Positions 2,228-43,272 of a stretch of 64,000 nt of DNA are shown in pieces; the stretch's first letter is position 1; each line of letters opens with the position of its first letter. The notes below the pieces were generated by a model that ran no database searches, was not told the origin of the DNA, and saw nothing but the letters and a program-made list of their open reading frames with translations. The stretch is from Cephalotus follicularis (Eukaryota > Streptophyta > Magnoliopsida > Oxalidales > Cephalotaceae): positions 682,001 to 746,000 of the forward strand of contig BDDD01000122.1 of NCBI GenBank assembly GCA_001972305.1, given 5' to 3'. The position numbers and the translations under genes were made by a program.

Positions 2228-2530
2228 AACCGTCGACGCTTAGGAAAGAAGCGTCGACGATGGATTGTTATACGGACAATGAGTCCTGATTCGCGATAAA
2301 CGTCGACGCTTACAGAAAACGTCGACGCCACGATTCGTTGTGTGTGAGAATGGACACGTGTACCGTTGACGCCTGAGGTTCCTACCTCAGAGCATCGACG
2401 CCAAAGGGATGGGATGTTGACGATGTTGACGCGTAAAGTTTCTGGTTGAAAGCATTGACGCTAAGAGTTAAGAGGCGACGCTTAAGTGACTGGGTTGAAC
2501 GTTAACGCCTATATGGTGCATGATGACGCG
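2228..2530 (+). repeat. Array of GTCGAC-core words (AAGCGTCGACGCTT type) in LTR-1
   Basis: About eleven copies of a short word around GTCGACGC occur at irregular spacing of about 15-40 bp: CGTCGACGCTTA, GCGTCGACGA, CGTCGACGCC, then decayed forms CGTTGACGCC, CATCGACGCC, GTTGACGCG, CATTGACGCTAA, CGTTAACGCC. Many differ by C-to-T at the CpG, as expected from deamination of methylated DNA. The spacer between words is unique, so this is not a simple tandem satellite. Function unknown. Confidence 0.75.
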
Positions 2531-3079
2531 AATAGAGCCCATTTGCATTATTGAGCATATGTTTGCGTTGCATACAATTGTTGATTGAGCTATCACTTGT
2601 TTTCTAAAATGTTCTTCATTTTAAAAGTGTATAAATGGTTTATTAAATCATTGTTATATGGAAAAGTATGTTTTCCAAAAGGATTGTTATATATATTGAC
2701 AAATATATATGTTGCAAGTATTTATATCTATAAATTACTTGAAGTGTTTGAAGGGAAGTGTATTGTTGCAAGTATTTTATGGAGCATAATTTACTTGAAA
2801 AATGAAGATTTATATATATTTTGACAAATATATATATGTTGTAAGTATTATACTTTTAAACGTTTTGGAAACGAACTGCAATGTTTTGAACGAGAAGTTT
2901 TGATCAAGTATTTATTTTATAAATTACTTGAGTGGTATTGTGCGTGCTGTGATTGCATTGTTATCGTGCTTGTGAATAGTATTGGTACTTAGCCACCGTG
3001 CTAGTATCGTTTACCGTGTATTGATTGTTGTTACTTAGCCGCCGTGCTAGTAACGTGGATGTTATTGATTGATTGTGAG

Positions 3080-3440
3080 CTTTCCTAGCACCACGGGACG
3101 GTTGGCTACGCGCTTTCCTAGCTCGGGGCCGGTTAGCATCTTTTGATTGTGAGCTTTCCTAGCACCACGAGACGGTTAGCTGTACGCTTTCCCAGCTCGG
3201 GGCCGGTTAGCATCATTGATTGATGGTCGAGCTATTCCTAGCCTATGTGCCGGTTAGCCTGTGAGCTTTCCTAGCCCTGGACGGTTAGTATCGACATGGG
3301 GCGAGCTTTCCCAGCTTGGGGCCAGATAGCCGCGAGCTTTTCTGGTCCGGGACGGTTAGCGTTGCTTCGTAGGGGTTGGTCCTTTGGACATGTTTGACTG
3401 ATTGTTTGATCGAGCTTTCCCCGCCTACGTGCCGGTTAGC
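3080..3440 (+). repeat. Imperfect tandem repeat of GCTTTCCTAGC units in LTR-1
   Basis: Roughly eight to ten units of 25-40 bp alternate GAGCTTTCCTAGCACCACG with GCTTTCCTAGCTCGGGGCCGG, each followed by GGTTAGC. It lies in the 3' half of the LTR. LTR-B carries a related but different series (CTTAGCCGCCGTGCTAGTA) at the matching place. GC content is clearly above the surrounding AT-rich sequence. Confidence 0.7.
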
Positions 3441-4438
3441 ATCGATATGGGATACTACCAACCTTCAGGTGGTAGATATCGGACTCGGACTGGATTGTTG
3501 GCCCGTTGAGGCATAACTGATTGTTTGTTCGGTCCTTCGAGGACACGTTTGTGACTGGTCCGCTGAGGACATGACCGAGATTGTGTTGATGTAGCCCTAA
3601 CGGGTTGCACATGTACTGTGAATATGCATATATAGATACATATATGTATATACTGTTATATATACCGTACTGCATCATTGTGCATTCATACATGACATGC
3701 ATTATCATTGAAACCGAACTGTATTTATACTTAGCCGAGTGAGGACAAAGACTAACCCCCCTACAGTTTCAGATTGATTTCAGGTTGATGCAGCGGTTTG
3801 TTACCGTTCAGCTCCGTGGAGCGAATGGAGTTTTATGCTGTTTTTACTTTTGAGGAATGTTAATGGATCATTGTAATAAATGAATCGATGTATTGATGTA
3901 TTTTGTTCACGCTCCGTTTGAGGGCAGTTAACTTTGATGATGTTTATTGTTGTAGCATGTAGTATGGGATGCATGTTACGTTGTTATTCGGCTTATATTT
4001 AAATGCTTCCGCAAGTTGTTAATGGATATGGAAAGTTTTAAATTTATGGTAAATTGCATAAGCCGGATTTATATGTTGATTGCCACCACTATATATGTTG
4101 TTTGTGGAACGGGGTGTGACATATCTGTACAGGCCCAGTGCACAGGGTATCTGATTTCCCCTGGTTAGGCCCACTAAGATCGTGTTTAGAAGTTCCCATA
4201 TTATTAGGCGCTGTTGTATCACTTAGCTCCACATTAAGAGGCATAGATTCAGGCCCATTATGAACAAGAGTACTAACTTCCATAATACTAGGCGCTGATT
4301 TTGAAGAAAGTGCCTCGTCAGGGGGTATATCATTAATATTGCTATTCATGTCATCGTTTCCCGTGATAGCAAGATCATCAAGAATCACGTAACGGTTACT
4401 TGGAGCCTGTTTCATTGATTCGCGCCGGAGATTATTAT

Positions 4439-4550
4439 CCAGAGATTTAGTGTTTTTAATATTACGATTACGTCTTGGAGGGAACATCCATTGTCCAGAG
4501 ATTTAGTGTTTTTAATATTACGATTACGTCTTGGCGGGAACATCCACCTA
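4439..4550 (-). repeat. 56-bp tandem duplication inside LINE ORF1
   Basis: The segment beginning CCAGAGATTTAGTGTTTTT occurs twice in direct tandem with a period of 56 bp and one mismatch near the end. Since 56 is not a multiple of three it shifts the frame of LINE ORF1. Confidence 0.75.
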
Positions 4551-5739
4551 CCATAATGGGAGGAAGAACCAGTGCCGCCTTTATCCGCCAATGGAGCAGA
4601 TGGGCGTGACGGAGTAGGCTGTTTTTTCCCCTCCAGAAGACAAGAAGTTGTACAATCTCCCGATTTGTGCCCTACTCTCCCACATTGAAAGCAGGTACGA
4701 TGAATGCCTACATGTTCAATAAACTGAGTAATATGACCAATTTCTACCTTAGCAATTAAAGTTTTGCTAAGGTCCACCTCGACACACAAGCGAGCATATC
4801 TAGTTTTCGTAGCCAGAGCAGTATTCTTATCTAGCCGTAGTGGTTTACCTATTAGCCCCTCAATAGCAAAGGGCAAGCTTTCATCATAGAACTCCAGTGG
4901 TAACTCAGGAAGGCGAACCCAAAGAGCAAGCGAAGATAGCGTGGCAGTTGATGGCTTAAAGTAGGGTCTCCATGGCTAAACCAGGAGACAATGGCCAAAG
5001 GTTAACCATGGACCTCCAATTAAAACATCAGAACAGTCGTGCGGGGTATCAAATTTCACTAGGAAATAGCCATGCCCAAAGTCTAACAGATCAAGTTCTC
5101 CTGACAGTTTCCACAACCTCTTAACATTATCTGATAGTAAACAGAGTCCAATGGACTTACCCAACCGTTTGATAATCATAGCATTCCTCCATGGGGCACG
5201 CAACCTTTTTTTTTTTGTCTCAACACTTAGGCGAAGACTGGGGCATGCCAGATCACCCTTAAAATTATCTTCTCTGTTTGAGACAGATTCTTCCATATCA
5301 CCATTGCACTCCGTTCTTTGTAAGAGGAAACCCCCAGTAGAGTATTCCTCTAGTAGGAGACTCTTTCTCTAGCCGTAGGGGAAGCTTCACCATTCTCTTG
5401 TGGTTTATCATAAGAGATCTCAGGCACAGGAGGAGAGCCATCACTGACATCCGCCTCTTTTTTCTTTTTAACACTTCTCTCTAGATTTTCTCTCTCCATC
5501 TTAGTATAAGTCTTTTACTTAATTTTTTAGGTCACAAATAGAGTTAAACCAAGTTAACATTTTATAAAATTCAAGTTTGTAAATCTCATCGTTGATATGT
5601 ATCGGTGAATGCGAAGTGAAAGCTCTAAGCTAGCTCCTTGACCCCATTAATGGATGTAATATTGTAGTTGCTAACAAGCTATCAGGAGAACTCAATCTGT
5701 CAACCAAAAGCTATGAACACAGATGGATCAAATCTAACA

Positions 5740-8700
5740 AGGGTAGAAAATTCTGGGTCGGACTGGTCGGGCTGTGCGCCATATGAATGCGGGTCGAACC
5801 TGACAGCAACTGAAAGCGGGTTAGTCTGGTTTTTCATTTGTTGGCGTTTTGCGGTCTGGGCCAGTTTCAGAACGGTTCAGCCGTTCAAAATAGGCAGCGT
5901 AGATCCATTCGGAAGGCATAAAATTTTCAGTTTCATGAAAATCGCGCCAGGATTTGCTTGTTATCCGTTTTGAGTAAAATAACTGTTGTTTGAAAGCCAT
6001 AGATGTTTAGTTTTCAAATAAAAGTGAAATGAACAAATTTAAATCATATGTTGCAGTAAATTAATTAGAGATGGTCACTCACGTAATTGTTTTACCTTAA
6101 TTGTAATGAAAATAGTTATAATCAAGAATAAATATTTTGAAGGAAAAATACTACATCATTATTTTTATTAATCAATTTAATTTGTTGTCTTATATGCTAC
6201 AAACCACGTAAAGAATAGTATATGTTACAATTAAAAGGTATATAAAAAAATTAGTTGTTTGGTCAATCACAATTTATACTCGTGTGGAACCTGAGTTTAC
6301 ATTATTTATTCGTTCACAATTAAAACTATTGAGAGCAAACAGTTTTTCACATTGTCTGCATTCATCGCATACAATATCTTGATCTTAAAGGTCTCCGATT
6401 CGCGCATTTGGTGATATTCAGTCCGTCAACTAAACCCACAACTTAAGGGATGTCAGAGTCAATATGCTTTTCCTATCGTTAAGAACTCGTCCTTATGCAT
6501 AAAAAGCAGACTTCGAAGCTACTATAGAAATACGATTGTTAGCAAATCAAGGGACATGACAGAAAGAACGAGATATTATAAACTATTATTCTTCCACCAA
6601 CTCAACAGATTCAGATTATCTGTGGCTTCATTAGGCATATAGGTGGAAGACATCGGTTTCGATAGATACCGTTGAAATTCAACATTATTTAGCCTACTAG
6701 ATCTCTTTCATGTGTTTGAAGAACCACCTAGTACGGACTTCATAAATGAAGTAAGAGTCTTAACTTTACCGGTAGATAGAGCGGATACTTGATGTTTATC
6801 AATAGAATTGTCATATTTTTTAATATATACATATAACATCTCAATGGAATACCTGTATATATTATTTTTATCAAATTCAATAAATTCAGAATTTGCAGGT
6901 GAGCATGATTTTATCCCCTTGAAGATTGCAAGAAAACCTTCTAGTTTAATTCTAGATTCTACTATTATAGCTAGCATAAATAATAATGAAATTTCCCAAA
7001 AGTATTTAAAAAAAATTTCTGGCATGAACAAGCATATCACGCTGAATTGATTGTCATTCCTATACTGTTAAAAAATGGAAACATATTTCATACAACTTAA
7101 AACAAAATAAGTTTATAGTAACATATTATTGACCAGAAAAAATTTGGTAAGTTCATCATATTTAGGAAAGAAAATTGATACTAATAAACAATTATCCCAA
7201 TCATGCTTAGTACAAGCAAGATGTAAAGTATATTTCAACTGAAATACAGTTAAATTTGTTTTGTATATCAATTTGCACATTTCACGTAAAATTCTACTTA
7301 TGTTACACATTAACTAACAAACTCTTATATTTTAAATTGTGCTCATTACATAGTCTCCTAAATTATTGTTTTTAGAAGAAGAATATATGATATAATATAC
7401 AGGATTTCTGTTATTATCGACTATATGCCCAATATATTTCAAACCATCTTACACAATTAGATTGATGATGTGACACGCACACATCTAACATGAAACAACT
7501 GACTATCTAATATTGGATTAAAACTAATTTTTAATATCCTAATAGCATAATCATTACTCCTAGCATTGTTAAAACTAATACACAAGATTTTATTATAAAT
7601 CCCCAACTCACATGTAGTGTTCTCTATTACTCTAGCAGTATTCGCACCACCATGAGGATGTTCTAAAGTAAATACTTTTTTTCGTAACAATTAGTTATTA
7701 TCGACATAATGTGCGGTTATACAATTATAACTACCACAAAAATTCATGCTCCATATATCAGATGCAAGTGCAATACTATTCATATCTTTGAATGAATTAA
7801 TCAAAATTATTTTTTCTGCTTTCATTTTTTTTTTAGAACAATCTCTTCTAAAAGTTGGTTTTCATATCATTTTAGCAAGTGGATTAAGTTCAAAGTGAAC
7901 ATAATCCCAAAATTTTGGATGATCAACTACATTAAATAGTAATTTCATGCATATAATAAATTTAGCTAAACATACCCTGTGTGCATCATCAAAAAATTTA
8001 AAATTACTCGGACCGGCACCAATAGTCGGGTCTTGTGCTTCTCCGAAGAACATGTTTTGAGAAACATGTTTTTAAATGTCTAGTATATGCATCGGTGCCA
8101 GCACCATTTTTATATGCGTAATGTTTTTCGTTGCATACCTTGCATCATACCCGTTATTCGTCATTCATGGGTTGAATATCCATGTATTTTCACACAACAT
8201 AAGACTTCAATTTACGCCCAATTCGGCTTCAGGCTCTTGGGCCGATCCCCGGGCGACGACATTGGAGGGCATTTCCACATCATCACTGAGATTGAGAAGG
8301 TCGTGCTGTCGTGAACATGATCGACGTTAAATAATAGATCGAATTGGTCTTCTGTGTCCGATGGCATAGTTTCGTCATCGGAATAATTTATCTTGGGGTA
8401 CGAAGATTCAAATTGAGATGACACATAAATGTCTTCAACTAGCATCGTTTGTGGACGCTTCTTTGAACCAGATGTGCCGATTTGAGTGTAGGAGCTTGAC
8501 ATTTTTGATGTGATTAAGTAATTAAGTATATAAATAAACTCAAACAATTTCTCAAACTAAACAATTTCTCAAATAAATAACACTTCAATATTGAAACTTG
8601 AGAGAGTAGAGACTAGAAAGTAGAGAGTTAGTTGGAGCAGAGAGATTAGAGAAATTATGAATTATGTGAAATGAGATACATGTACTTATAGAAGCTCAAA

Positions 8701-9030
8701 TTGTAATTTTTTTTGTAATGTTGCTTGAAAAAATAAAAAGCCATAACAAAAAAAATAGTAGCCACAAGGACTACTCTGACAATAGTTACTTTGTTAAACT
8801 AGCCAACAACTAGTTTTTTTAAACTAGACGTTGGGCCAATTTATAATTCTAGAACCGTCCGTGACTGGACCGACAGCAGGTCGGAACGGTTTCGATCCGT
8901 ACTAGTTAATGAACTGGTAGGACTGCTCAATTAGACCGGCCCTAAAGACCAGACCGTCGCCACAATGACGGTCTGATCCATCTTTTTTACAGATCAAACT
9001 GGCTCATACCCATCTCTACTGATACCAACC
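5740..9030 (-). mobile_element. Decayed hAT-superfamily transposon (copy 1)
   Basis: A minus-strand hAT transposase pseudogene (about 8503-6425) is bordered on both sides by sequence rich in CGGTCCGG-type subterminal words (5750-5900 and 8840-8990). The right border reads, on the minus strand, TAGAGATGGGTATGAGCC, a terminal motif typical of plant hAT elements. A clear matching left terminal repeat and 8-bp duplication could not be found, so both ends are approximate. The unannotated 5500-5740 stretch shows nothing. Confidence 0.6.
6425..8503 (-). pseudogene. hAT transposase pseudogene (BED finger, RICESLEEPER-like), copy 1
   Basis: The protein would start near 8503 (MSSSYTQIGTSGSKKRPQ). A BED-type zinc finger lies at about 8144-8046 in a different frame: CKVCNEKHYAYKN followed by TRHLKTC, the CX2C...HX4C pattern. 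Then come LAKFIICMKLLFNVVDHPKF (8050-7862), FNNARSNDYAIRILK and LFHVRCV (about 7600-7480), the DUF4413-like KYFWEISLLFMLAII (about 7010-6960), and a C-terminal dimerisation remnant LLSWWKNNSL with a stop (about 6590). Order and spacing match hAT transposases of the plant DAYSLEEPER/RICESLEEPER group. Several frameshifts and stops make it non-functional. The protein is clearly related to the plus-strand copy at 25071-35732. Confidence 0.75.
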
Positions 9031-9179
9031 CAAGCCCATAGACAGGTCGACTCGACACTAATGGTTGCTGAACTGGCCCAACTTGAAGGCCAATATGACA
9101 CAACTAATAGGTATTGTGGATCGACTAGCACGTGTGTCCATTAGTGCTCGCAGGGCAATTTAGTACAGCCCGACATGTC

Positions 9180-9545
9180 AACATTTACAAGAAAATTATG
9201 TCTATTAATAAAAGAATATTAACATTTCTTATTAAAAAACTTAATACATTTGTTTTTTTAACTTAGTTCAATTACTTACTCTAACTTTAGTTTATTAATT
9301 TAGTTAATTCTTATAATCTAACTTAATTATAACTCTAGTTTTTAATTAATTTACTCAGTCTCTTAATTTTAATTGATTAACTTAGTTTACTCTAACTTAA
9401 AGAACTAAGTTTACTCTAAATCTCTAACTAAATTTTAAGTGATTAACTTAGTTTCTCTAACTTATTTCTAACTTAGATTACTGACTGTAAGTTTAATTAC
9501 TTACGCTAAACTATTTTTAACTTAATGCTAACTTATGTTCCAGAA
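9180..9545. repeat. AT-rich degenerate repeat of (T)AACTTAGTTTA words
   Basis: About 360 bp composed almost entirely of irregular copies of AACTTAGTTTA, TAATTTACTCT and similar words. It is low-complexity spacer with no gene. The following 9545-10860 is also gene-free apart from a GA microsatellite and the downstream flank of the cyclase gene. Confidence 0.55.
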
Positions 9546-9846: not shown

Positions 9847-9872
9847 GAGAGAGAGAGAGAGAGAGAGAGAGA
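9847..9872. repeat. (GA)n microsatellite
   Basis: Thirteen uninterrupted GA dinucleotides. Confidence 0.9.
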
Positions 9873-25070: not shown

Positions 25071-26121
25071 ATGGATGACTCGAAGATCCAACCTCTGGAC
25101 GATAGTCAATTTGATATTTTCAGGTACGATAGTCATGATGAATATGACTATAACGACGAATCATGAGCATAGACACATTTCAATGTGGCGGAGCCGGTTT
25201 TCCAAGCATCCCTGCTGAGGTCAATTTCAACAGATAAAATTGGTAAGCTTACGTGAGAATACATGGAGTTTCACGAGATCGATAGCATAAAAAAAGATTG
25301 CTGCAAGGTATGTAACGTAAAATATTACGTTTATCAAAAGAGTTATGACACCAATAATTACAAAAGCACTTGTTGCCTTGTTTGCAAAAACTGTAAGGCC
25401 CCAAAGTTTATAAATTGATGTATATTGTAATGCCTCAATAATTAATAATATGCTTTAATTTATGAATATAGCTCCCAACTGTTATATGATGGATGGATCA
25501 TGGGCATGGGATATGGGTTTGGTGAGCATCAATTTTGCTGGAATCCCAACTCTCTATATTTGGACTTATTATAACCATGAATTTCCAATTAGCAATTGAA
25601 TAACGATGTCATATATCTAAATATACATCAAAGAACCCGAATTTTGCCACCTATCAATTATATTGCAGCTTTTAACACCTGGCCATTGCAATTGTTGAAC
25701 GAGCTCCATTACTTCCTAATTACATGACATCAATTACATATAAACTTATCTATTGACACATATCTAATTCACAAAGACAATTCAATGATTTTAACACCTG
25801 TACCCTAACTCAACAAATATTCATTCTCTAATTGCCACTTTTATATAACAATTTGACACATAGCTCATAAAAGGCCAAGTGCCACCGATTGATATCACTT
25901 CTTTATTCTTCACCCTTTTTGTTACCTCAACCCTACCGAAAAACACCATAATCTCATCACCTCTTCAAAGAATAATACACTTGCACTAATGTAACGCCCG
26001 AGATTTTCGTTAAGGTGTAATATTGTATTTTTAATGTAATTTTATACGTGGAATTAATGAGGATTGTGTTTTTCCCCTTTGGTGTGGTAAAAGTTGCAAG
26101 AAAAAGTGTGTTAGTGCGCTT

Positions 26122-27292
26122 TTGGTGCAGGGGGCAGCCGACTGCCACCTGGAGGCAGCCGACTGGACTCCCCTGGTGAAGGTGGCAGCCAGCTGCTGTG
26201 AGGAAGCAGCCGGCTGTTTTGAGTGTCGGCAGAAACAGTCGACTGCCAAGGCATGGCAGCCGACTGCCATGCACTAGACAGCCACGTGCTGTCAGCCTTT
26301 AAGTGGTGAAAAGTGGGTATTTTGGCATTTGTGGCATTTGGCAGAGAGAGGGGGCCGGGTCTCCTTCATAAAAACACAACTTCCTCTCCTCAATCTCCAT
26401 CTCCTTTGTGATTCAAGTGTGTTTGAAGGTGAGTTTGAGAGTGAAAGTGTGTGTGTGTGTGTTGTGGACATACGGAGTTGGTGTTGAACCGTGGCTTGGA
26501 GGCTCGGACCAGTGGAGGAACCGGACTTGTGGAGGCTGCTGGACGCGCCTAGGAGTGCAAGGACCTCGGATCCGGGACTTAAAGAGGTGGATTGCAACTC
26601 CTAACTTGGAGTTCTAAGGTAGGGGAAAGCTATATTTGTGATTCAAAGTCATTTATAATGATGTTATGAGTGAAGTACATGTATGATATTGTGATACAAG
26701 CATGGATATATGTTGTGGTGATAGTGTTTGTGGTTTTGAATGGTTTAAATATGGATTGAAGTGTGTGTTTTGCTGCTGTTTTTGGGCACTGCCCGTGGGG
26801 GCAGTCGACTATCCAGGGAGGACAGCCGACTGTCCAAGGCTAGCAGTCGACTGTTTTGGGTAACAACCGACTGTCTAAGGAGAACAACCGACTGAGCACT
26901 GGAGCCAGTCGACTGTCGTGCCTGGAATTGCAGGTTTCCTCCTGTTGATTTTGTAGCCGACTGCCAAGGAAGGCAGCCGACTGTGTGGTGGTCCAGCCGA
27001 CTGTTTTGGGTAACAGCCGACTGTCCACGTGTCACTCTCCCGGGCGTGCTGGGACAGGTGGCAGCAAGGAATGTGTATTGTTTTGGGCCAGCCGACTGCC
27101 TGGAGAGGGCAGCCGACTGCTAAGTGAGTGACAGCCGACAGCCAAGGAGGGCAGCCGACTGTTGGCATGAGACAGCCGACTACCAAGGATGGCAGCCGAC
27201 TGGTGATTGAGGGCAGCCGACTGCCAAGTGTGGGACAGCCGACTGTTGGAGGGAAACAGCCGACTGTCAGTGAGAAACGACAGACTGTTGGA
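26122..27292 (+). repeat. Array of CAGCCGACTG / CAGTCGACTG words in LTR-B
   Basis: About 27 copies in two clusters, 26122-26290 and 26800-27292, split by the putative splice donor near 26615. The full word is close to the palindrome GGCAGTCGACTGCC, with GCCGAC more common than GTCGAC; variants include CAACCGACTG, CAGCCAGCTG and CAGCCGGCTG. Spacing is irregular (about 17-45 bp) and the spacers often begin CCAAGG or TTTTGGG. This produces long spurious ORFs on the minus strand that should not be read as genes. Confidence 0.8.
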
Positions 27293-27483
27293 ACCGTTTT
27301 GCATTGTGAGCATATGTGTGCATATTGTACTGTGTTAGACTGTATTTCGAGTTGGTTATCGATGATTGTGAAACGTTTTACCCCTTTTTGGAAGTGCAAT
27401 GTGATTTACATAAATTATTACTTTATGTGAAATGTACGTTTTGAGATATATACGTATTCTCAAAAGATTGTGAAAGTATCTTC

Positions 27484-27705
27484 CAAAACCTTGTGAAAAT
27501 GTGTTTGGTTAATGGTTTATTAAAATCATTAGTTGATTGAAAAATGGTTTCCAAAAGGATTGTGAAAATGTGTTTGGTTAATGGTTTATTAAAATCATTA
27601 GTGTTTGGAAAATGGTTTCCAAAAGGATTGTGAAAATGTGTTTGGTTAATGGTTTATTAAAATCATTAGTCGCTTGGAAAATGGTTTCCAAAAGGATTGC
27701 GAAAA
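27484..27705 (+). repeat. Three tandem copies of a ~63-bp unit in LTR-B
   Basis: The unit contains TTGTGAAAATGTGTTTGGTT, then AATGGTTTATTAAAATCATT and GGAAAATGGTTTCCAAAAGG. Three nearly identical consecutive copies are present plus a partial fourth. LTR-1 has only one related copy (2600-2680), so the expansion is local to LTR-B. Confidence 0.75.
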
Positions 27706-29517
27706 TGGCTTTTGAGAGATTGCAAAATTGATATACAAAGATGTATTTTGTGGTATTTGAAGGTAGTTCAAATAACCGGGTTTTACTAAAGTGTATTGTT
27801 GCAAGTATTTTGATACTTAGGTTTTGGGAAAATGATTGTTATATATATTTTGACAAATATATATGTTGCAAGTATTTATACCTATAAATTACTTGAAATG
27901 TTCAAGAGAAATGTATTGTTGCAAGTATTTTATAAATCATAATTTACTTGAGAAACGAAGTGTTATATATATGTTTTGACAAATATATATATGTCGGAAG
28001 TATTTATACTTTAAACGTTTTGGAAACGAATTGCAACGTTTTGATAAAGTATTTATTTTATAAACTACTTGAGTGGATTTGTGGGTGTTGTGTTTGCACT
28101 GTTATTGTGACTATGTTGAGTGTTGGTACTTAGCCGCCGTGCTAGTATCGTTTACTGTGGATTGACTGATTGTTGTTACTTAGCCGTCGTGCTAGTAATG
28201 TGGATGTTATTGTATTGATTGTGTTTGAGTGTTGCCGCTAGCGGGGTAATGTTGGTACTTAGCCGCCGTGCTAGTATCGTGAGTGTTGCCGTTAGCGGGG
28301 AAGTGTTAGTACTCGCCGCCGTGCTTGTATCGAGTGAGTTCCGAGTGTTGTCCACGCCGTCGTGCCTGTGACGGGAACAATTGTTTGCTATTGAGTGTAT
28401 TGAATGTCTGCCTTGACATGCCTGATTGTTGTCCTTTGGGACGTGGCTGATCGTTATTGTGTAGTGATGGGTCCTTAGAGACCTGAGATATTGTTGGCCG
28501 TTGTGCCGTTGTGATATTGTGGTCCGTACGGAGTACTGATGTACTGTGACTTTGTGGCCTGTGACCGTGTGGTCGTGGCATACATATATATGTATATATA
28601 TGCATCGAGATATAGTATGTACTGCATCATTGTGCATTCATATCATGACATGTTTTATCCTTGACCCTGGATCGCTTATATGGTTTTGCCGAGTGAGGAC
28701 AAAGGCTAACCCCCTAAAACTGCAGTGTGTTTCAGGTTGATGCAGCCGTTGGTTGCTGCTGGGCTCCGAGGAGCGATATGGAGTTTTATCTTGTTTACTT
28801 TTGAGGAATGTTCAAGGATTTTGTAATAAATGAATGGTTGTAATAAATGAATCGATGTGATAATGATTATTGTTCACGCTCCGTTTGAGGGCAGTTAACT
28901 GTTATGATGATATTTACTGTTGTAGCATGTAGTATGGGATGCATGCTATGTTATGTTTCGGCTTATTTTATATGCTTCCGCAAGTTGTTGATGGATATGA
29001 AAAGTTTTAATTTCATGGTATTTTGTATAAGCCGGATTTATATGTTGATTGCCACCACTTTTATTGTTGTTATGGGAACGGGGTGTGACAACTAATTTCT
29101 TTGTCCATGAGGAATGAGGATTAAGGATTTGATCTTGGCTTTGGTTGAAGAATGAAGAAATGAGTGAAAAGTTACTGGTTTGGTAGAATCCTTGAAGAAT
29201 TCCTGGAAAATTTAGCTTCCCATTCAACCTGGGATTGAGGAATGCTCTGCGTGTTGAGTTGGATGCATTAAGAATTGGATTAGAACTCAAAGCTTGAAGA
29301 TTGGAGGCTGAAGCTGCCCTATTTTGAGTTCATCATCAGGTTCATATCTCCAATTCTACTTCAAGCCATATTAAGGTAGGGGATTTTGGATGATTCTAAA
29401 ATTTACATGCATGTTAACATCATTGTTGTATTTTTATTTGAATTGACTTGAAGTTTAAAATCTGGAATTGTAAAGTGAAATTATGTAGAAATCTTTGTTT
29501 GCTACATTAAGCCCTGT

Positions 29518-29770
29518 CGCTTAAATTGTGAGCGTCACCGCTTAGTGTATGTCTTTTCGAGTTTTAAGAGCTTTAACCATCAACGGTTAGTTGTTAGCTC
29601 TTAGTGCTTTGCTAAGCGTCGCCGGTCAGCTTTTGAACATCGCTGCGTAAGCAAATGTCAGTGGCCTAAATGTCACTGTCAGTGTTAAGCGCTGACAGTT
29701 GAACTAACTGTTGACGCCTGATTAAGAGCTAACGCTTAGAATGTAAGCATCGTCGTTTAGACTTGTAGTT
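29518..29770 (+). repeat. Degraded GTCGAC-type word array in LTR-A
   Basis: Words such as GAGCGTCACCGCTTAG, AAGCGTCGCCGGTC, AAGCGCTGACAG, GTTGACGCCTGA and AACGCTTAG recur within 250 bp. They resemble the AAGCGTCGACGCTT word with substitutions at the centre. More decayed than in LTR-1 or LTR-E. Confidence 0.5.
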
Positions 29771-30953
29771 CATTAAAATTGTTTAAATCCCTTAGTGGAT
29801 TTTATCGATCGTTATCAAGGATTTATATTCTTAATATGAATTGAATCATATATTTTAATGATGATTGTAAATTGAATAAGTGATATTATAAATCGATTGT
29901 AAGTGAATGATGCGATTATTATGCATCTAAGTAAATGAAAAAGTGTTTAACAAAGTGCATATAAATGTTTTATCGAAAATCTATTTTCATGTGTATATTG
30001 AAATGTTGTCGAAAGTGTTTCTAAGTAGGTATGATTTATAACAAAGTGAAAATATTTTAAGTGGTTGCCATGTGCAACAAGTGAAAAGTGTTTTGTCTCT
30101 AATAATGAGATCGATGTTTTAAAATTACAAAATATGTAATTTTCTGATTGATTGTGATTGAGTGTCTGTCATTCAGTGATCGGAGGTTGCCATTAACAAT
30201 AGAGGTGGGCCTACATACCAGGAGATGGCTAGTGCTTCCACCCTAGTGTCGTCATGTGGGCGAGATTGCGTACCCTCTTTGTGCCGGTAAGGATTGTTTA
30301 TTGTACATGGATCTTGTCACACCGGAGAGAGTGAGATGATAGGTAAAGGTGCATCATTTCGGCCAGGAGTTGGCGATGAATGACCCCATGAATTGTCATT
30401 GATCCCTTGAGTGGATTGTTTGGTAAGTGATTCAGTGGTCATTTTGGCATTGAATGCTTCGAAATAAGAGAAAAGTATTTTCTATATAGACCTATATTTA
30501 GTATTATTCATTCAGCATATTGTACATTCTATTAACATTTATTATAATATGTAAGTGCATTCGCTACAATATGCTTATTTATATTGTAGCATTAGTGTAA
30601 AACGGGGTGTGACAAAAACATGGTATTAATCACGGCTAACAATCTGGGTCCGTTTGTGACATCCGTGTCCCAGTAATCTATGTCAGTGAGCCTACGTGGC
30701 TTTTTGTCTGTCTGTCTGTCTAGCTGTTAGTCTGTTTTTCTGGCTTCCATGACATGCATCACGGCATTAATAAAATTTTTATGATTTATTCTGATGGTTT
30801 TTCTGCATAACAAATAAATGTTTTTTGCTGTAAATTAAATGATATTTTACTGAAATTGCTGTTGAATTCAGAAAATAAGCCAAGTGGTATGTCCTAAACA
30901 TCCAATTTCTGTTCGTATCGGTTAAATTCTGGACAAAACCCAATATGTTATGG

Positions 30954-32160: not shown

Positions 32161-32513
32161 TGTAGCGACCCCGACCCGAGTCCACCTTAAGCTCAAAGCG
32201 AACTACGAAGATCGGTTGCGCTACGTTGGGTGTGAAACGTTACAGCCTTTTCCTGCGTTTTTCACCTCTATCCCGACTAAAGCGCTGACGCTTTATCACA
32301 AAGCGTCGACGCTTTGAGTCAGCTGACACATATAACTTCAACACGTCGACGTTCAAAATTAGGAGATCGACTCTCACCTAAAGCGTCGACGCTTTAAGTG
32401 TAACTGTCGGCCCTTTAGACAGTTTTCTTCTCATTACTTAGCTAAAAAATCTGACTGAATATACACAATAGAAATCATATTTAATATCTTACATGGAAAT
32501 TTGGGTCCTTACA
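32161..32513 (-). mobile_element. Short solo LTR LTR-D (353 bp), internally deleted relative of LTR-E, inside LTR-C
   Basis: On the plus strand it begins TGTAGCGACCCCGACCCGAG and ends TTTGGGTCCTTACA, with a perfect GTTTT duplication (32156-32160, 32514-32518). Its first ~90 bp and the GCGTCGACGCTTT portion match LTR-E (39174-39260 and 40990-41121), while about 1.7 kb of LTR-E interior is missing. Orientation is assigned because the reverse complement starts TGTAAGGACCC like the other LTRs here. It carries four GTCGAC-core words at 32280-32400. Confidence 0.8.
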
Positions 32514-32976: not shown

Positions 32977-33306
32977 ACTGCATCTTTATATATTTATTCT
33001 GTTGTAAAACTCTATTAAATACTACATATAACTGAATTTCCGATGTTTTAAATCTGTTTGAAAGAAATTATCCGGTTTTCTGATCTGGTTTTTCTGTTGA
33101 TTTCTGGACATATCTGTTTTGCAAATTGGTTTTTAATTTATACTGCATCTTTATATATTTATTCTGTTGTAAAACTCTATTAAATACTACATAGAACTGA
33201 ATTTCTGATGTTTTAAATCTGTTTGAAAGAAATGATCCAGTTTTCTGATCTGGTTTTTCTGTTGATTTCTAGACATATCTGTTTTGCAAATTGGTTTTTA
33301 ATTTAT
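32977..33306. repeat. 165-bp tandem duplication in LTR-C
   Basis: Copies 32977-33141 and 33142-33306 begin ACTGCATCTTTATATATTTA and differ at only a few positions. The high similarity suggests a recent duplication compared with the age of the surrounding hAT decay. Confidence 0.85.
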
Positions 33307-35732: not shown

Positions 35733-36587
35733 TTAGGTAGAAATGTACACTCCTGGCCCACATGAATATAAACTGTAAAGGGCTATAATAAAAAGAATGT
35801 GCACTACTGGTGCTCAATAGTATAATACTGGGAACGACTATATTAAATTACAACGTACACTCTTGGCTCGCATGAATATAAACTATGAACGGCAAAATAA
35901 TCAATCAAAATAATTCATTCTCGTACATTTGTCGACTTGTTTTATTTACGCTTTTTTTAATTTTGTATGAACATAACAGATGAATTTTGTGCTTAATATT
36001 AATTAGATTTCATGTTATTTGCTTTGAGTTTTTTGGATTTTTTGACCAGTCACGAACCAATACGAACCTTGAACCGCATCGGATCAGCCTGCAAAAAACC
36101 TGACCCTATCTCGGCATTAAAAAAAAAATCGGATCACTGTATAGGTCAGACCGAATCGGCTTGGCCTTGCCTGTGCCTAGCTTTACTTTCATTATTACGC
36201 TTAGCAGGCCACTCTCTATCTTTTTTATTTTAATTTTGTTATAATTATTTTTAGGGTTTTGACACAACTAGAAAAAACGTAAATTGAGATGGAAATTTGA
36301 GACTAGACTTAATTCTATCTTTATATGACTTGTTTTTATGCCATTCATCTCTCTTTTAAGTGTTTGTTGATGATAACCTTATTATTTCTTCAAGTCATCA
36401 TCGATTACTATGTATATTGTTTCATTCATGTTGTTGTTTTCCTTTGTTATTCTTGTTTTCTGTTAAGAAATTACTTTTGTCATATATATTTTTAAAACTA
36501 AATGTGTGATGTTTTGCTCTTGACTCAATGGAAATTATGAGAGTTGATATTTTGGATCCAAAATTTCCTGCACGGAGAAGTTGATTT
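35733..36587. other. hAT 3' flank and AT-rich spacer
   Basis: Contains a short diverged duplication around 35740-35880 (GTACACTCCTGGCCCACATG and GTACACTCTTGGCTCGCATG) and CGGATC-rich subterminal-like sequence (36040-36190) that probably ends hAT copy 2. No gene seen. Confidence 0.5.
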
Positions 36588-36946
36588 TGTTGGAAATTAT
36601 CTTGATTATTTGCTAACATTAATTGTGAGTATTTTGGATTACTAAATACGGGTAGGATATTGATCCATATTGAGACAAACTTATGAGCCAATATTGTTAA
36701 GTGATCTACTGTGTATGGGCTAGCATATTTCTTATGCATATTTGAGCTGGTGGTAAGTGTGGATTGTAGAAAACCATTGATTTGTTATGGGAAGGCCTTT
36801 AGGGTTTCCATATAAAAATGTATTTGGCTAGGTCCATTCTCTTGCCTAAGGATTACGTTATCAACCCATTTGAGAGCCACCTTCTGGAGTTAGGAAAAGG
36901 AGGAGAAGAACTAGCCCTATTTTGCTGCTAATCTCTGCAATGGCTC
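36588..36946 (+). repeat. Direct repeat, copy 1 (~360 bp)
   Basis: Begins TGTTGGAAATTATCTTGATT and runs to about ATGGCTC. It shares clear similarity over its whole length with 37893-38251. Contains GAGAGCCACCTTCTGGAGTT and AGGAGGAGAAGAACTA. It looks like a retroelement terminal or leader segment, but no target duplication was found. Confidence 0.65.
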
Positions 36947-37336
36947 CACTTTTATTGATGAAAGTCACTTTGTGAATAGTCATCTCTTTTTTGTGTTATT
37001 GATAACTTAAATATTTTATTTATGCACGTAAGATTTGTTTTTACTGGTTAGCTTACATCATTTAAAATCTTAAGATCTTAAACATGACAATGTTGAAGCA
37101 TTGAAAATCCTCGAGGTACTAGTGTTTAATTTTTTAAGCATGGCTATTTTATCAAAAATGTTGATGATTTTAAGGTATTTACTTTACATATCAAGTGTGA
37201 CAATATGGCGAAAATTATAATTATTGATCATGATTTATGATTTTGGTAATATCATTTTGTGATAGATATCATGTTTTATATATGTGCACATTTTGTATGA
37301 CATGTCATTTCACATAAAGTATTGAGACTGGTGTCT

Positions 37337-37440
37337 GTCTCAAGTATGACTGTTAGTTAGTCACCTATTGAGTATATTTCGTAACACTAGTCTCAAGCAT
37401 GACTATTAATTAGTCACATGTTGAGTATGTTTCATAATGA
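37337..37440. repeat. Diverged ~52-bp tandem duplication
   Basis: GTCTCAAGTATGACTGTTAG followed by TTAGTCACCTATTGAG is repeated as GTCTCAAGCATGACTATTAA followed by TTAGTCACATGTTGAG. The rest of 36947-37892 is AT-rich with no gene. Confidence 0.6.
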
Positions 37441-37892
37441 AACCTGTTGTAAGCCTGTGATATATATTTGAGGATCAAGACATAGTGGTTTTCTTGGGAA
37501 GTCTTGAAATTTCTAATTTTGCTTAGAGAAATCAAAATTTTCATGTTTTAGAGAAATCACGGACTAATAATGAATAACATATTTTGATATCACATTTTGC
37601 ATGCTATTTCATTGCCACACTACCATATCTAGATCTATGTTTGTAAAGTTATTGACATGTTTGACATAGATTGTCTTATGTATATTAATACTATATAGAC
37701 AGTTATTATTCTATGTTTGTAACTTTATGAAATTAGATCTTATTTGAAGTGATGTCTCATGATCAAGTTTTTTTTTTTAAAAAAAAACTTGTGATCACAA
37801 TTAAAATTAGTTATTCTACCCAAAAACCGTTTTTTAAAAGTAATATATTTAAAATTCTTAGAACTATAATTAATGTTGTCCAAATGAGTGAA

Positions 37893-38251
37893 TGCTGGAA
37901 ATTATCTCGATTATGGGATAATATTAATTGTGAGTATTTTGATTTACTAAATACGGGTAGCATATTGATCCATATTGAGACAAGCTTGTGGTCCAATATT
38001 GCTAAGTGATCTATTGTGTATGGGCTAGCACACTTCTTAGTGCAGATATAGGCTGGTGGTAAGTGTTAGTTGTAGGAAACTATTGGTTTGTTATCGGAAG
38101 GCCTTTTGGGTTTCCATATAAATTGCATTTGGTTAGGTCTTTGCTCCTGCCTTACGATTATTTAATCAACCCATTTGAGAGCCACCTTTAGGAGTTAGGA
38201 AAAGGAGGAGAAGAACTAACCCTATTCCATTGCTAATCTCTGCTATGACTC
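37893..38251 (+). repeat. Direct repeat, copy 2 (~360 bp)
   Basis: Begins TGCTGGAAATTATCTCGATT and ends near ATGACTC. Same order of motifs as copy 1 with roughly one difference in seven by eye. The 38252-39069 stretch that follows holds a short duplicated segment (TTTGAAGAAAATA...CACGTCCAATAAAAAA at about 38490-38620) and no gene. Confidence 0.65.
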
Positions 38252-39173
38252 AGTCAACGTTGAATCATAAAGATTTATCGCGGTAAACATCGAGACGAGT
38301 CTACTTGATTTCGTTATTCCACTGCATAATTCAAATATGGCTCAACTAAGTACGATCTTCATTCATCGATTCTAGGTGTTCTAATATTGTATATGATCCA
38401 TTTAATTTCAACAGATTTTACCCGGTGGTTGGTCTACATAGCATTACCAAATACTACAAATTAATTTAATATCGCATATAGGTTTATGGTTTGAAGAAAA
38501 TAACACGTGTCATACACGTCCAATAAAAAAAGTCCCTACCTTGTTTGGTTTGAAGAAAATAGCACTGTGTCATATATGGAAAAAGACTGTTTATATACAT
38601 AGACACGTCCAATAAAAAACCTATATAAATTCCAAGCATATATTTTCTCTACCTTGTTTACAACAAGTCCAATAAAAAAAACACAAATAACTTTCCATAC
38701 ATTGCATTGGAATTCCAGATTGAGTCCAATTGTTCCAATGCCGGATAGTTTTATAGAATCACTACTATTGATTTCCACTTCCAAGTTTGCTGGTCATGTC
38801 ATCACTCTGTTCTAACAATAATTCCCTGATTTTACCGTAACAGTATTGTGACTTCGATACTTTTGAAAGAGATAATTTGTTTGTTTGATCCTATCATAAA
38901 ATCTTGATTGTTACACCAAAAATTTTCAATGGAGTCTCTTGTGGTGATTGGTCAGTCATATGCTTATACTGATGTGCTCAAATGTGGTCTTGTAAAGCAA
39001 GTGTGAAGAATATTTTATTAACTTGTTATGTGTTGTTTTTGAAAGATTGGTTTTCTTCTTGTAATGTAGATGGATGATAAGATTTGTGCAGTAGTTTTGG
39101 GTTCAACAACAATTGTTCTAGTTGTGGGTCATTTAATTATCGAATATTATAGATCAAAGAGTAGAAGTCAATC

Positions 39174-41121
39174 TGTAGCACCCCGACCCGAGTCCACTTT
39201 AAGCTCAAAGCGAACTACGAAGATCGGTTGCGCTACGTTGGGTGTGAAACGTTACCACCTTAGGTACTCTTTTCTAAAAGTACATAACATCATAAATTCA
39301 CGTCTTACAAAATCGTGCATAACCTTCAAATCATCTTTACTCATAATCATCTTTAAAAAATGTCATAACCATATCATAGGTTTACATTACACAGGATCAC
39401 TATTCTACATAAACACATATTACAGCGGAAAAACATTATTCTTATTACATAACAAAACATAATGCGAATATCATCGCATAGCCTTCGTTTTCTCAAAAAA
39501 ATTCCTTCTTAAGAGCTTCCTCTAAGCTCGCATCTCCACTCATTCATTTCCTGAAAACATTTTATTTGAAAACAACATTGAAAGGAATGAGCTCAAAATA
39601 GCTCAGTAAGGTGTTTTTATAGTAAACACATTTCATCATAACATTTTTCTAGTCAAAATATATATAACTAGAACATTTCATAAAACATATCACTTTTCTA
39701 GTTAATATCATAACTAGATCATTTCGTAAACATGGAAATCATAAAAACCTTAATGAACCCTTTTCATCACTTCACCGGGGCATTGTGCACTCCCCGACTA
39801 CTATCCTTACATCACATGCATGTCCGTGAGCACGCTCGGCTCCATTAACTTTGAGCAATCTCGCTCCTTCTCCCCTTGGATTACAAACCAAGGGCGGTTC
39901 ATTCATCATTTACTTTGAGTGATCAGCTCAAAGTAACCATAAAAATCATTTCATAACATCTCTTTCACAATCCATAAACTTTTCTTTCATTGGAGTAATT
40001 GACTCAAATAGTTCATAAAAATCAGTTTTGCATCACTTTGCGAAATCTAGTAATTCATATAGAATTAAGCCTTTTCAGTAAAAACTTAAAACATGAACAT
40101 TAAAGTAGACATATTTACAAATTCAGAAAGCTCAAGATCACAACAATTGGTTGAGAATTGAATCCTCTACGAATTTTTGAAAGTGGCTGATTTCTTAAGG
40201 AAACAGGGCATGAGCAGTAAAATGAATCCTTGATTTTAATCAAGAATTCGACATAATTTCGAGATTAATAAAACATAACAGTTAAAGAGGACATCTTAAG
40301 GTTTTCAAAACATCCAGCCATTTAATTTTTCATAAAGAAACGAGTGAGATATGATTTAAATAAGCTACTGCATAATCCAGGAATAGAACAGTGCCTGAAC
40401 AGAAATTTAAAACTTGGATTTCCATCAAGAAAACGATAGAATCTTGAAACATGCAAAGCATAACATTTAAAGAAGACATCTTAAAGTTTCCAGAACAGCA
40501 AACCATTCGAAAATCCATTGAGAATTGAACAAGTTATCGATTGAACAATCTGCTGCATACTTAAGAGCAAAACAGGGGAAGTTTTAATAATAGTGGGTAT
40601 AAAATTTCCTTACCTTAGCTTTAGAATTCCTTTCTCTATTGCTTTCCACAAATTCTACACTTCACACTCTGCAGGATTACTCTCTTTCTCAGCTCAAATT
40701 GACTGAGTTCAAGGTTCTTTGCCATTAAATAGAAGGATGGCTTCTTGGGTAAGTTTCTTCCCCACTCTCACAAATTTAATTCTCTCTCCATGTGACAAGA
40801 ATTTAACCAATCCAAGTGTTGCACTTGTTAGATCCCCAGATATCACCTTTTAGCATCTTCCCCTGGCCTGCCACGTGTCCCCAATTAAAGAATTTTACTT
40901 ACAAAATGCCAAAAAATCAGATTTTACCTTTGTCTGCAGCTTAAAGCGTCGACCGTTTCTTCTAAGCGTCGGCGCTTAAGGGTTTTACCTGACTTTTTCA
41001 CCTCTATCCCGACTAAGGCGCTGACGCTTTGTCACAAAGCGTCGACGCTTTATGTCAGCTGACACATATAACTTCAGCGCGTCGACGTTTAATATTTTAC
41101 ATGGAAATTTGGGTCCTTACA
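39174..41121 (-). mobile_element. Solo LTR LTR-E (1,948 bp) inside the Harbinger transposase
   Basis: On the plus strand it reads TGTAGCACCCCGACCCGAGT ... TTTGGGTCCTTACA, with a perfect CAATC duplication (39169-39173, 41122-41126). The reverse complement starts TGTAAGGACCCAAATTTCC, matching the start style of LTR-1, A and B, so minus orientation is preferred. In that orientation a GTCGAC word array (41095-40938) comes first, then a donor-like CTAAGGTAAGGAAA near 40610. Its plus-strand left end is almost identical to LTR-D for about 85 bp. Confidence 0.85.
40938..41095 (-). repeat. GTCGAC-core word array in LTR-E
   Basis: Six words in 160 bp: AAAGCGTCGACCGTTT, TAAGCGTCGGCGCTTA, AAGGCGCTGACGCTTT, AAAGCGTCGACGCTTT (a perfect 16-bp palindrome), CGCGTCGACGTTTA, plus GTCAGCTGAC. 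The CGCTGACGCTTT...AAAGCGTCGACGCTTT pair is shared with LTR-D. Confidence 0.75.
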
Positions 41122-42149
41122 CAATCTATCTATAGGATTAGAGATCATATACCAAGACAACCATTTATTGATCGGGCTTATTTGAAGGAGGTGGATATGG
41201 ACAATTTATTGTGTAGAGGTGACATCCATTGCGTAGACCAAATACGAATGAGACCCCTAAGCTTTTATGCACTATGTAATGTCCTTACTAGGTATAACTT
41301 AGTACGGTCGACAAAAAACATGTCTATTAAGGAACAAGAGCTACGCTTTGTTCACTGCATAAGACATAATGTGAGATTTCGAGTGTTGGCGAGAAGGTTT
41401 CATCGGTTATTTGAAACTTGTCATCAATATTTTAAGGTAGTGCTAAAATCAGTGTTGAAGCTATATAAATATATTATTAGGGCACCAAATGATTCCACCC
41501 CTCCAAAGATAATAAATAGTCGAAGGTTTTTCCCATATTTTGAGGTAATCACATAATGAAACTACATTTATTTTTTATAAGTACTAATTTTTTGTTAGGA
41601 CCCAATTACCTTTTATTAATCATTATGTAATAATTAATCATAGGATTATGTAGGAGCCATGAATGGAACTCATGTTCGTGCATTTATTCCCTTAGAAATT
41701 GAAGGAAGGTTTCCTAGTCGAAAAGGGGGAACAACACAAAATGTCTTAGCTGCCATTACTTTTGACTTAAAATTCAGTTATTTATTAGCTGGTTAGGAAG
41801 GAAGTGCACGCCATTATGGAATTTTGAACAATACACAATCAAGATCCCAAGGATTTAAAATTCTAGAAGGTAATATTGAACTAAAGTTTACTTTAATATA
41901 AACAAATTAAAAATATATATATGTGTGATGACTTCTTTCTTGTAAATTTGTAGGCAAATTTTACCTAGGTGATACTGGTTATGGCATCCGAGCTGGAATT
42001 TTTTTATCGTATCATGATGTTCGATATCATTTAAATGAGTTTGGTGATGAATGCCTCCCTGAAAATGAGAAGGAACTATTCAATCATCGTTCTTTTTTAC
42101 GAACTACTATTGAATGAGGGTTTGGGGTTTTGAAGAAACGCTTTCGTGT

Positions 42150-43272
42150 TGTTGGGTTTTGTCTAACAATCCTGGTTTTGATGATAACAAAGTACCTAAC
42201 TTGTTTTTTGATGTGAAGAAATGATTAAACAAAACAAAACAAGAAAGTGCATAAACAGACAAAAGCGTCGCTGGTCTAAAGATAAGCGTCAGTGCTTAAG
42301 GGCAAGCCAACGAAAGAGAAATTGCTTAAAGCGCCGACGGTCACAAGAAAGCGTCAGCGGTTTAGACCAAGGCGCCAACGCTTAAGGAACACATATCAGA
42401 GCTTTATTCCAGAGACTTGTAAAATTCTGTGATTGACTCAAAGCGACGACGCTCTGAAGAAAGCGTCAGCGCTTGAAGTAAAATAGTCGATACTCAGAAC
42501 AAAGTTTCAGCGGTTTGAGCGAGAAATTCAAATCCAAGCACATAATGGTAACATAAGCGTCGACGTTTTGTGTAACTCCGTCGACGCTTTGCGCGCTGGA
42601 AACATTAATTAAAGCATCTTTTCAAAGCCGTGTTACAACGACAAGTTCCAATGCAACTCCAACGGCTCTATTAGCTCTCCAACGGCTACAAACTGAAAAA
42701 TACAATAAATAGAAGCTAAGAACAAAGATCAAAGAAGAGAATAACAAGATACAAACGAAAAGGAACATCAATAGCAAAAACTACAACTTTCAAATCTATC
42801 AAAGCTTGTGTCAAGTGCTTTATCGCCTATGTTGTAATCATATTTGAGAGCTACCATCTGTGAGATTACTTAGCTAAATCCAACCTTTGAGAGGTTATCT
42901 TCAAACACAAAATAATCTTTGATTGTAATAGGGGAGTGAACCTTAGTGAGATAATCAAGAGGAGTGAACTCTTAGTAGGATTGTCAAAGGGGAGTGAACC
43001 CATTAGTGATTGAGGTCAATCACTAAAACTTGTAAGGTGTTTTTGATTTGCACCCGGAACCCAAAATCAAAATGTACTAGAAGGAGTCTAGTGGGGAAAG
43101 TGGATGTAGACAAGAGTTAGCCGAACCACTATAAACCGTGTTTGCAATCTCTCTAACTCTATCTCTCTTTACTTATTTTGTTTAATTGTTCTTGAGTGCT
43201 TGTTTAATTTTCATAGTTTAATTTATCTTTTCCGCAAATCCCATCTCTTTAGGTTGCCATATAGGATTTTCA
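42150..43272. mobile_element. Solo LTR LTR-F (1,123 bp), copia-like ends, inside the Harbinger transposase
   Basis: Starts TGTTGGGTTTTGTCTAACAA and ends ATATAGGATTTTCA, with a perfect CGTGT duplication (42145-42149, 43273-43277). Excision restores the transposase frame. The termini are unlike those of LTR-1, A, B, D and E and resemble Ty1/copia LTRs. Yet it contains a GTCGAC-type word array at 42265-42595. Also contains several AGTGAACC/GGGGAGTGAACC units at 42930-43010. Confidence 0.85.
42265..42595. repeat. GTCGAC-core word array in LTR-F
   Basis: About eleven words: AAAGCGTCGCTGGTCT, TAAGCGTCAGTGCTTA, AAAGCGCCGACGGTC, AAAGCGTCAGCGGTTT, AAGGCGCCAACGCTTA, AAAGCGACGACGCTCT, AAAGCGTCAGCGCTTG, AAAGTTTCAGCGGTTT, TAAGCGTCGACGTTTT, CCGTCGACGCTTTG. 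The AAGCG arms are better conserved than the centre. Spacers are unique. Confidence 0.7.

Follow-up and report, generated by a model that had tools for sequence, protein, structure and literature searches.

Arrays of a short palindromic word, AAGCGTCGACGCTT (hereafter the AAGC word), are found in several long terminal repeats (LTRs) of a 64,000-nucleotide stretch of DNA (contig BDDD01000122.1, positions 682,001 to 746,000; hereafter the window) from the 1,577-Mb (1.58-Gb) assembly of Cephalotus follicularis, and their closest described counterparts are the RM boxes of Sireviruses. According to the available part of Bousios et al. 2010 (PMC2829016), RM boxes are palindromic, number at least eight per element and mostly occupy the first half of the LTR, before a TATA box near its middle, with the array starting at 200–400 bp; they are CpG-rich, have diverged flanks and, except in Tnd-1, a CGG-CCG core, and the word differs in most elements. 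They are called Sirevirus-specific there on the basis of a comparison with other (classic) Ty1/copia elements, in which they are absent. The same part of the text describes a purine-rich stretch and an AT/TG junction for Sireviruses, names box I of Tnt1, and gives no pitch for RM boxes (PMC2829016). The RM word of a Vitis Sirevirus, CGGTCGACCG, as it stands in the available text, has the GTCGAC core of the AAGC word. By contrast with RM boxes in general, the Cephalotus words also occur in a Ty3/gypsy-type element, have TCGA, and not CGG-CCG, at their core and prefer a pitch of 20–21 bp.

Palindrome clusters of maize Sireviruses (word CACCGGACNNNGTCCGGTG) are, like the arrays reported here, situated in LTR control regions and endowed with strong predicted RNA structure; in the available part of PMC10760457 they are tied to small RNAs, and maize Ty3 elements are said to be generally without an obvious structure peak. 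The Cephalotus Ty3/gypsy-type element, unlike these, does carry an array. Symmetric or repeated activator sites of a plant LTR are also represented by the dyad of Tnt1 box I and by tandem U3 enhancers, which differ from the present arrays in their few copies and their restriction to one Ty1/copia family; we know of no arrays of the Tnt1 kind with a pitch of two helical turns. Relative to the literature found, the Ty3/gypsy-type carrier, the occurrence of one word across LTRs whose ends are unrelated, the pitch of two turns and the existence of two separate word dialects are new, although the pitch may already stand in Bousios 2016, to which the maize clusters are reportedly due.

Word arrays in the window and in the genome

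Allowing three mismatches, 26 sites of the AAGC word were found in the window against 0.75 expected, a number matched in none of 100 shuffles. All but one lie inside LTR-1 (6), LTR-A (3), LTR-D (3), LTR-E (5) and LTR-F (8), which bears out the original prediction, made from the letters of the window, that LTR-1, D, E and F carry arrays of the word and LTR-A a decayed version, whose best copies have three mismatches; the remaining site, at 46369, falls within a putative host gene. With four mismatches allowed the distribution is similarly lopsided: 35 of 42 sites lie in the same five LTRs (8, 8, 5, 5 and 9, respectively), none in LTR-B and seven across the other 52.4 kb. None of the sites on this list falls in the coding stretch at 53995–59412, on the minus strand, whose frames we read as a decayed Ty1/copia element.

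The genome-wide survey gave 18,108 perfect AAGC words compared to 15 for the reversed control, TTCGCAGCTGCGAA, a difference of about 1,200-fold, and 6,402 sites of a third common word, AAGACGTCGACGTCTT, compared to 26 for its reverse; genome-wide repeat counts are lower bounds, and copies within one family are not independent. A chance origin of the AAGC words is rejected by these counts and by the shuffles. Neither does the word reach the same density in random DNA, the circumstance under which the prediction was to fall: 19 stretches from contigs 1–120, totalling 188 kb and including retrotransposons, held 92 AAGC words with up to three mismatches and only four reversed controls. Those perfect 10-bp palindromes of which this sample contained four copies or more were ranked by excess over the expectation from base composition, AT repeats being set aside. 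The list was headed by CAGTCGACTG (34 copies, 348 times expectation), GCGTCGACGC (10 copies, 230 times), ACGTCGACGT (8 copies, 82 times) and GCATCGATGC (4 copies, 41 times), all four with TCGA at their centre, and the next was TGAAGCTTCA (4 copies, 18 times). The words are thus the most over-represented non-AT palindromes of a random genome sample, and they are common to LTR families without mutual alignment. Viral contigs searched for both words in tandem yielded no match. The word arrays are confirmed as a real genome-wide feature, larger than first noted.

LTR limits were set from end sequences and target duplications. The six LTRs of the window (1, A, B, D, E and F) are all solo, each between perfect 5-bp target duplications, and the ends of LTR-F (TGTTGGG...TTTTCA) are unlike those of the others, as had been predicted. 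LTR-D and LTR-E align in blocks of 113, 88 and 34 bp with 90, 95 and 97% identity; they form one family that has its array by descent, so that their separate counting is rejected and the word recurs in four sequence families (1, A, D/E and F), not in five. LTR-1 and LTR-B are homologous in two blocks of their 3' halves (521 and 411 bp, 80 and 84% identical). All other pairs lacked alignments at 1e-3 or better, save two short array stretches, one between LTR-D and LTR-F (42 bp) and one between LTR-1 and LTR-F (39 bp). Descent of the arrays together with their LTRs from one ancestor, the other circumstance that would have undone the prediction, therefore holds for D/E only. The recurrence itself is solid, and a selected function may be inferred from it.

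The LTR-D/LTR-F stretch (32280–32322 and 42434–42475) is a doublet of words with a common TGACTCA flank, slightly more alike than the words alone would make it. Arrays might have moved between LTR families as modules, by template switching or recombination, in which case the recurrence would reflect shared array ancestry and not convergence. Ten LTR pairs were tested for this, including the known relatives E and D. The D/F doublet outscored all 150 spacer-shuffled versions (P 0.007) and LTR-1/LTR-F gave P 0.013; however, the other seven unrelated pairs ranged from P 0.05 to 1.0, and correction for ten pairs brought D/F to about 0.07 and 1/F to about 0.13. Such transfer is considered unlikely.

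Pitch of the words and their possible reader

The arrays had been called irregular, a description that did not survive measurement of the distances between word starts, which favour 20–21 bp. In the arrays of LTR-1, A, E and F, neighbouring words stood 19–22 bp apart in 13 of 26 cases, versus 3.2 expected, a number reached in none of 20,000 random placements within the same array spans (single-array P: LTR-1 0.043, LTR-A 0.046, LTR-E 0.068, LTR-F 0.0002). LTR-D, omitted from the joint test as a relative of LTR-E, has two of four spacings in this range (P 0.093), and the two arrays of LTR-B, built of the word CAGYCGRCTG (hereafter the CAG word), together have 19 of 24. A blind lag scan of the window placed the LTR-B, LTR-F and LTR-D arrays among its four highest-ranking 200-bp windows. 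Genome-wide, CAGTCGACTG was followed by CAGYCGACTG at a pitch of 20–21 bp in 45,459 cases (reversed control, 158), compared to 12,626 over all pitches from 22 to 31 (control, 30) and 1,215 over those from 10 to 19 (control, 7). The AAGC word was followed by its half-word AAGCG 1,738 times at 20–21 bp (control, 2) and 487 times over 22–31 bp (control, 1), the per-gap excess of 20–21 over 22–31 being 18-fold for both words. Among the 20–21 pairs listed, pitch 21 accounted for 80 of 100 AAGC and 49 of 63 CAG pairs; as to the third word, 97 of 100 listed neighbours lay at 19–21 bp when 13–37 bp were allowed. The preference also emerged from a scan of the random sample for pairs of similar near-palindromes of any core that use all four bases: YCGR cores had 62 of 134 pairs at 20–21 bp (TCGA 38/85, TCGG 14/30, CCGA 8/17, CCGG 2/2), and other cores 2 of 36. 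A secondary pitch of 27–28 bp was seen in CAG-word arrays (e.g. G000 C1:67026-67063), whose longer spacers often hold letters resembling CACGCATCA or TGATGCGTG.

These arrays probably represent sites, in phase with the DNA helix, at which dimeric proteins bind the control region of the LTR. Each YCGR-core palindrome would be the site of one protein dimer and, with words about two helical turns apart (19–21 bp), successive dimers would sit on one side of the double helix, where cooperative binding is possible. Words of 10, 14 and 16 bp all have a pitch of about two turns, and the loops that they would leave in a hairpin are of 10–11, 6–7 and 3–5 bases, respectively; it is the distance between words and not the loop that is kept, which favours proteins aligned along one face of the helix. 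Of the three functions originally offered (dimeric protein site, RNA hairpin or small-RNA target), the two-turn pitch thus favours the protein site over the hairpin. The reader would be a host protein, which the sharing of one word by LTR families without mutual alignment makes more probable than a protein encoded by the elements, and once bound it might drive or de-repress transcription from the LTR. The words, their palindromic consensus, pitch, abundance across the genome, dialects and recurrence are observed, and so is their lower variability: between family members word columns were 91.8% and non-word columns of the same spans 84.6% identical, with the words ahead in eight of eight alignments (the D/E pair counted both ways). 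Protein binding, host origin and transcriptional effect are what we infer.

Action of the palindromes in RNA, as hairpins or as paired neighbouring words that feed or evade small-RNA silencing in the way suggested for Sireviruses of maize, is an alternative that we deem unlikely. Compared with 60 dinucleotide shuffles, six of seven arrays had the more stable fold (z −3.2 to −5.0, the second LTR-B array reaching only −1.3), four control stretches gave z −1.8 to +0.6, and neighbouring words paired slightly better than other word pairs (P 0.03 and P 0.018). A small-RNA excess over the maize Sirevirus palindrome clusters, reported in the available part of PMC10760457, points the same way. However, any palindrome folds, so that stability is expected under all readings, and start-to-start pitch is kept while the length of the would-be loop changes. 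Moreover, the LTR-F words are upstream of a TATA-like site, which would place them outside the main transcript, and compensatory symmetry, tested within the window copies, was not found.

Spacers were compared in the same arrays. The prediction held that the words are separated by unique sequence and are not one satellite copied along with the LTR. This stands for the AAGC arrays, in which spacer diversity rules out a satellite copied whole: 100 listed doublets (five of them on both strands) have 79 distinct spacers, and in the window the mutual identity of AAGC-array spacers is 0.379 versus 0.356 by chance (P 0.115). The 63 plus-strand CAG pairs have 50 distinct spacers; in LTR-B, where spacers are more alike than chance predicts, a satellite origin holds in part, and tandem duplication helped to build the array. 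A neutral by-product, that is, a short unit tandemly duplicated in LTRs and spread by transposition without any function, would agree with the likeness of the LTR-B spacers, and the very high copy number of LTRs would make any array common. This is nevertheless very unlikely: elsewhere the spacers are diverse while the words persist, the same word and pitch are present in LTRs that lack alignment to one another, and perfect words seldom adjoin (268 pairs within 30 bp among the 18,108), which argues against freshly homogenised arrays.

The AAGC word, the CAG word and AAGACGTCGACGTCTT all have a TCGA-type (YCGR) core, with flanks that differ between LTRs. Within 30 bp of perfect AAGC words, genome-wide, another AAGC word was found 268 times, a CAG word once and a perfect third word never; this last count overstates the separation of the two, as one locus (L028, at 1343) pairs AAGACGTCGACGTCTT with the AAGC word. 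Neighbour pairs of YCGR near-palindromes (81 pairs at 19–22 bp, from 30 non-overlapping loci) included 50 CAG/CAG and no CAG/CG-flanked pairs; in five a CAG word stood next to another type, those listed being TAG variants. Two dialects, CAG-flanked and CG-flanked, therefore stay separate, and words vary within the CG dialect, several of whose variants stand together in one LTR (that of L032, described below). A strict reading of one word per array is limited by this mixing to the distinction between CAG and CG flanks. LTR-1 and LTR-B, with homologous 3' halves and different words, represent a dialect switch at the family level.

Separate dialects, related LTRs with different words and densely packed words are also what an anti-silencing code would produce, in which each element would encode the protein that binds its word, after the manner of VANC proteins in VANDAL transposons. 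VANC targets of Arabidopsis behave likewise, being short words dense in non-coding transposon DNA that change together between relatives; they differ in belonging to a DNA transposon, in forming same-orientation arrays and in having an element-encoded reader, and the available part of the VANC paper makes no mention of palindromes (PMC5735166). One encoded protein could hardly serve unrelated LTR families that share a word, and we regard a code of this kind as quite unlikely here.

Several observations weigh against phased sites for protein dimers. As regards pitch, a helical period beyond the first neighbour (>24 bp) was not clear in the AAGC arrays of the window, the LTR-1, A and E arrays were not among the 16 windows listed by the blind lag scan, and the third word has a mean pitch of 19.87, the means of 20.8 for AAGC and CAG words coming from pairs preselected at 20–21 bp. 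As regards symmetry, copies in the window fall short of the symmetry that independent columns predict (134 versus 142 pairs), and many are quasi-palindromes with TCAG/CTGA centres, so that strict dyad symmetry is not kept in each copy. The contrast between word and non-word columns is inflated by defining words on the query, and no LTR-A or LTR-F alignment qualified to contribute to it. Spacers of LTR-B resemble one another more than expected by chance (0.419 versus 0.327, P 0.0005), and the second array of LTR-B lies downstream of its TATA-like site. CG-flanked variants mix (14 like versus 10 unlike pairs, with GCG, ACG and ACA flanks), and the words of L032 all have three or four mismatches.

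If the arrays are nonetheless sites for dimeric host proteins, a candidate reader is the bZIP protein FD, to which the available part of PMC13360168 ascribes recognition of motifs with ACGT or TCGA, GTCGAC among them; in that of PMC12711580 the FD site named is the G-box, with no mention of TCGA. We take FD, or another bZIP of its kind, as no more than a lead. DREB/CBF proteins, whose core is RYCGAC, were also considered and set aside, as they do not explain the TCAG-centred words. A more elaborate proposal, which we find rather doubtful, is that both LTR superfamilies converged on one grammar: a YCGR palindrome in two dialects, repeated every two turns and recognised by dimers of paralogous host proteins, perhaps group A bZIP/FD, that would switch elements on in the meristem or floral lineage, LTR-1/LTR-B having changed reader by rewriting every word. 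It is made less probable by the mixing of CG-flanked variants within arrays. Should the words be protein sites, one could test at once which host factors govern LTR elements in plants, and the arrays would then put enhancer-like clusters near host genes. The shared core, differing flanks and CAG/CG separation would constitute a natural experiment on a regulatory code that changes as a unit.

Elements that carry the arrays

One locus, L032, provides an internal region for the LTR-1 family. It consists, in this order, of a first LTR, a primer site, a zinc-knuckle frame, an RNase H frame and the opening 1.2 kb of a second LTR, which matches the first at 92.7% identity. Ten words were found in its 5' LTR (one for the reversed control), six in this part of the 3' LTR and none in the internal part. 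Domain matches above the cut-off were RT_RNaseH_2 (1.1e-18), RT_RNaseH (7e-8) and zf-CCHC, and that to RVT_1 was weak (21.3 bits, below the Pfam cut-off of 29.6); these models are taken here as marks of Ty3/gypsy. The LTR of L032 resembles the 3' part of LTR-1 (73 and 76% over 234 and 174 bp). The LTR-1/LTR-B family thus appears tied to Ty3/gypsy-type coding domains, through L032 only, and LTR-A, D and E are gypsy-like in their end sequences only. Another locus, L024, considered as an LTR-B relative with a gypsy pol, was dropped, its LTR and pol being on opposite strands.

Words also follow Sirevirus-like LTR starts at five loci (L006, L007, L009, L019 and L026), in better arrays than the degenerate one of L032; all five except L007 have a purine-rich stretch, with AT as its last letters, ahead of the TG start. 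The LTR of L009 is 71% similar to LTR-F over 177 and 150 bp, and GGGGGAGAT, read against the junction octamer of Sireviruses, stands before its TG. The first TATA comes after the array in L006, L007 and L009, and not so in L019 and L026. No Ty1/copia pol joined to a word-bearing LTR was found among the loci examined; the likeness to Sireviruses lies in the LTR starts and the junction letters. Relatives of LTR-F (40 of 7,689 candidates were scored) occur in pairs 3.4–4.5 kb apart on four contigs (G000 C507, C5403, C1270 and C3303), suggesting that the LTR-F family may be short and non-autonomous.

Set against the description of RM boxes, LTR-F has nine words with up to four mismatches, or eight with up to three, and these cluster in its first half (offsets 114–440 of 1123), ahead of an imperfect TATA-like AATAAATA at offset 555; the array starts at 114, compared to the published 200–400 bp. 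Its CpG observed/expected ratio is 1.52 in the array versus 0.48 elsewhere in LTR-F, but its G+C is only 0.46; AAGC arrays as a whole range from 1.17 to 1.78, the window standing at 0.66. In place of the CGG-CCG core there is a TCGA core with GCG...CGC flanks, Tnd-1 being likewise without the signature. LTR-F would therefore fit the description of Sirevirus RM boxes save for the CGG-CCG core. The LTR-1 family departs from the restriction to Sireviruses, since its relative L032 has frames of Ty3/gypsy-type RNase H between its LTRs.

Coordinates of LTRs and word arrays in the window (all LTRs solo)
Feature	Positions	Strand	Word starts	Remarks
LTR-1	1145..4121	+		ends TGTAACGCCC...GGGTGTGACA; duplication TATCT; LTR-B family
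LTR-1 array	2228..2483		2228, 2249, 2298, 2317, 2361, 2390, 2450, 2470	AAGCGTCGACGCTT, 1–4 mismatches
LTR-A, 5' piece	25392..25989	+		starts TGTAAGGCCC; split by LTR-B; LTR-A duplication AAAAC
LTR-B	25990..29090	+		nested in LTR-A; duplication ACTAA; word CAGYCGRCTG, no AAGCGTCGACGCTT
LTR-B first array	26135..26266			6 CAGYCGRCTG words; upstream of TATA-like CATAAAAA at LTR offset 378
LTR-B second array	26802..27266			19 CAGYCGRCTG words
LTR-A, 3' piece	29096..30614	+		ends GGGTGTGACA, then AAAAC
LTR-A decayed array	29509..29758		29509, 29530, 29575, 29614, 29687, 29706, 29724, 29745	8 words, 3–4 mismatches
LTR-D	32161..32513	-		353 bp; duplication GTTTT; LTR-E family
LTR-D array	32280..32415		32280, 32301, 32341, 32381, 32402	perfect: 32301, 32381
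LTR-E	39174..41121	-		duplication CAATC; within putative PIF/Harbinger-like transposase gene
LTR-E array	40944..41090		40944, 40964, 41016, 41037, 41077	perfect: 41037
LTR-F	42150..43272	+		Sirevirus-like start TGTTGGGTTTTG; duplication CGTGT; in same gene as LTR-E
LTR-F array	42263..42589		42263, 42284, 42329, 42349, 42370, 42441, 42461, 42555, 42576	9 words, 1–4 mismatches

LTR-B, absent from the earlier list of LTRs, forms with LTR-A a nest spanning 25392–30614. Downstream of its palindrome array, LTR-1 contains a second tandem block (3064–3434), whose units, GAGCTTTCCTAGC...GGTTAGC, are some 74 bp long. A direct tandem duplication of 165 bp, 97% identical, lies at 32977–33306, about 460 bp downstream of LTR-D. 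The gene that hosts LTR-E and LTR-F presumably encodes a PIF/Harbinger-like transposase; it is read at 41122–42149 and 43273–43560 and was the target of both insertions. LTR-F ends about 2.4 kb from a putative gene start near 45.7 kb.

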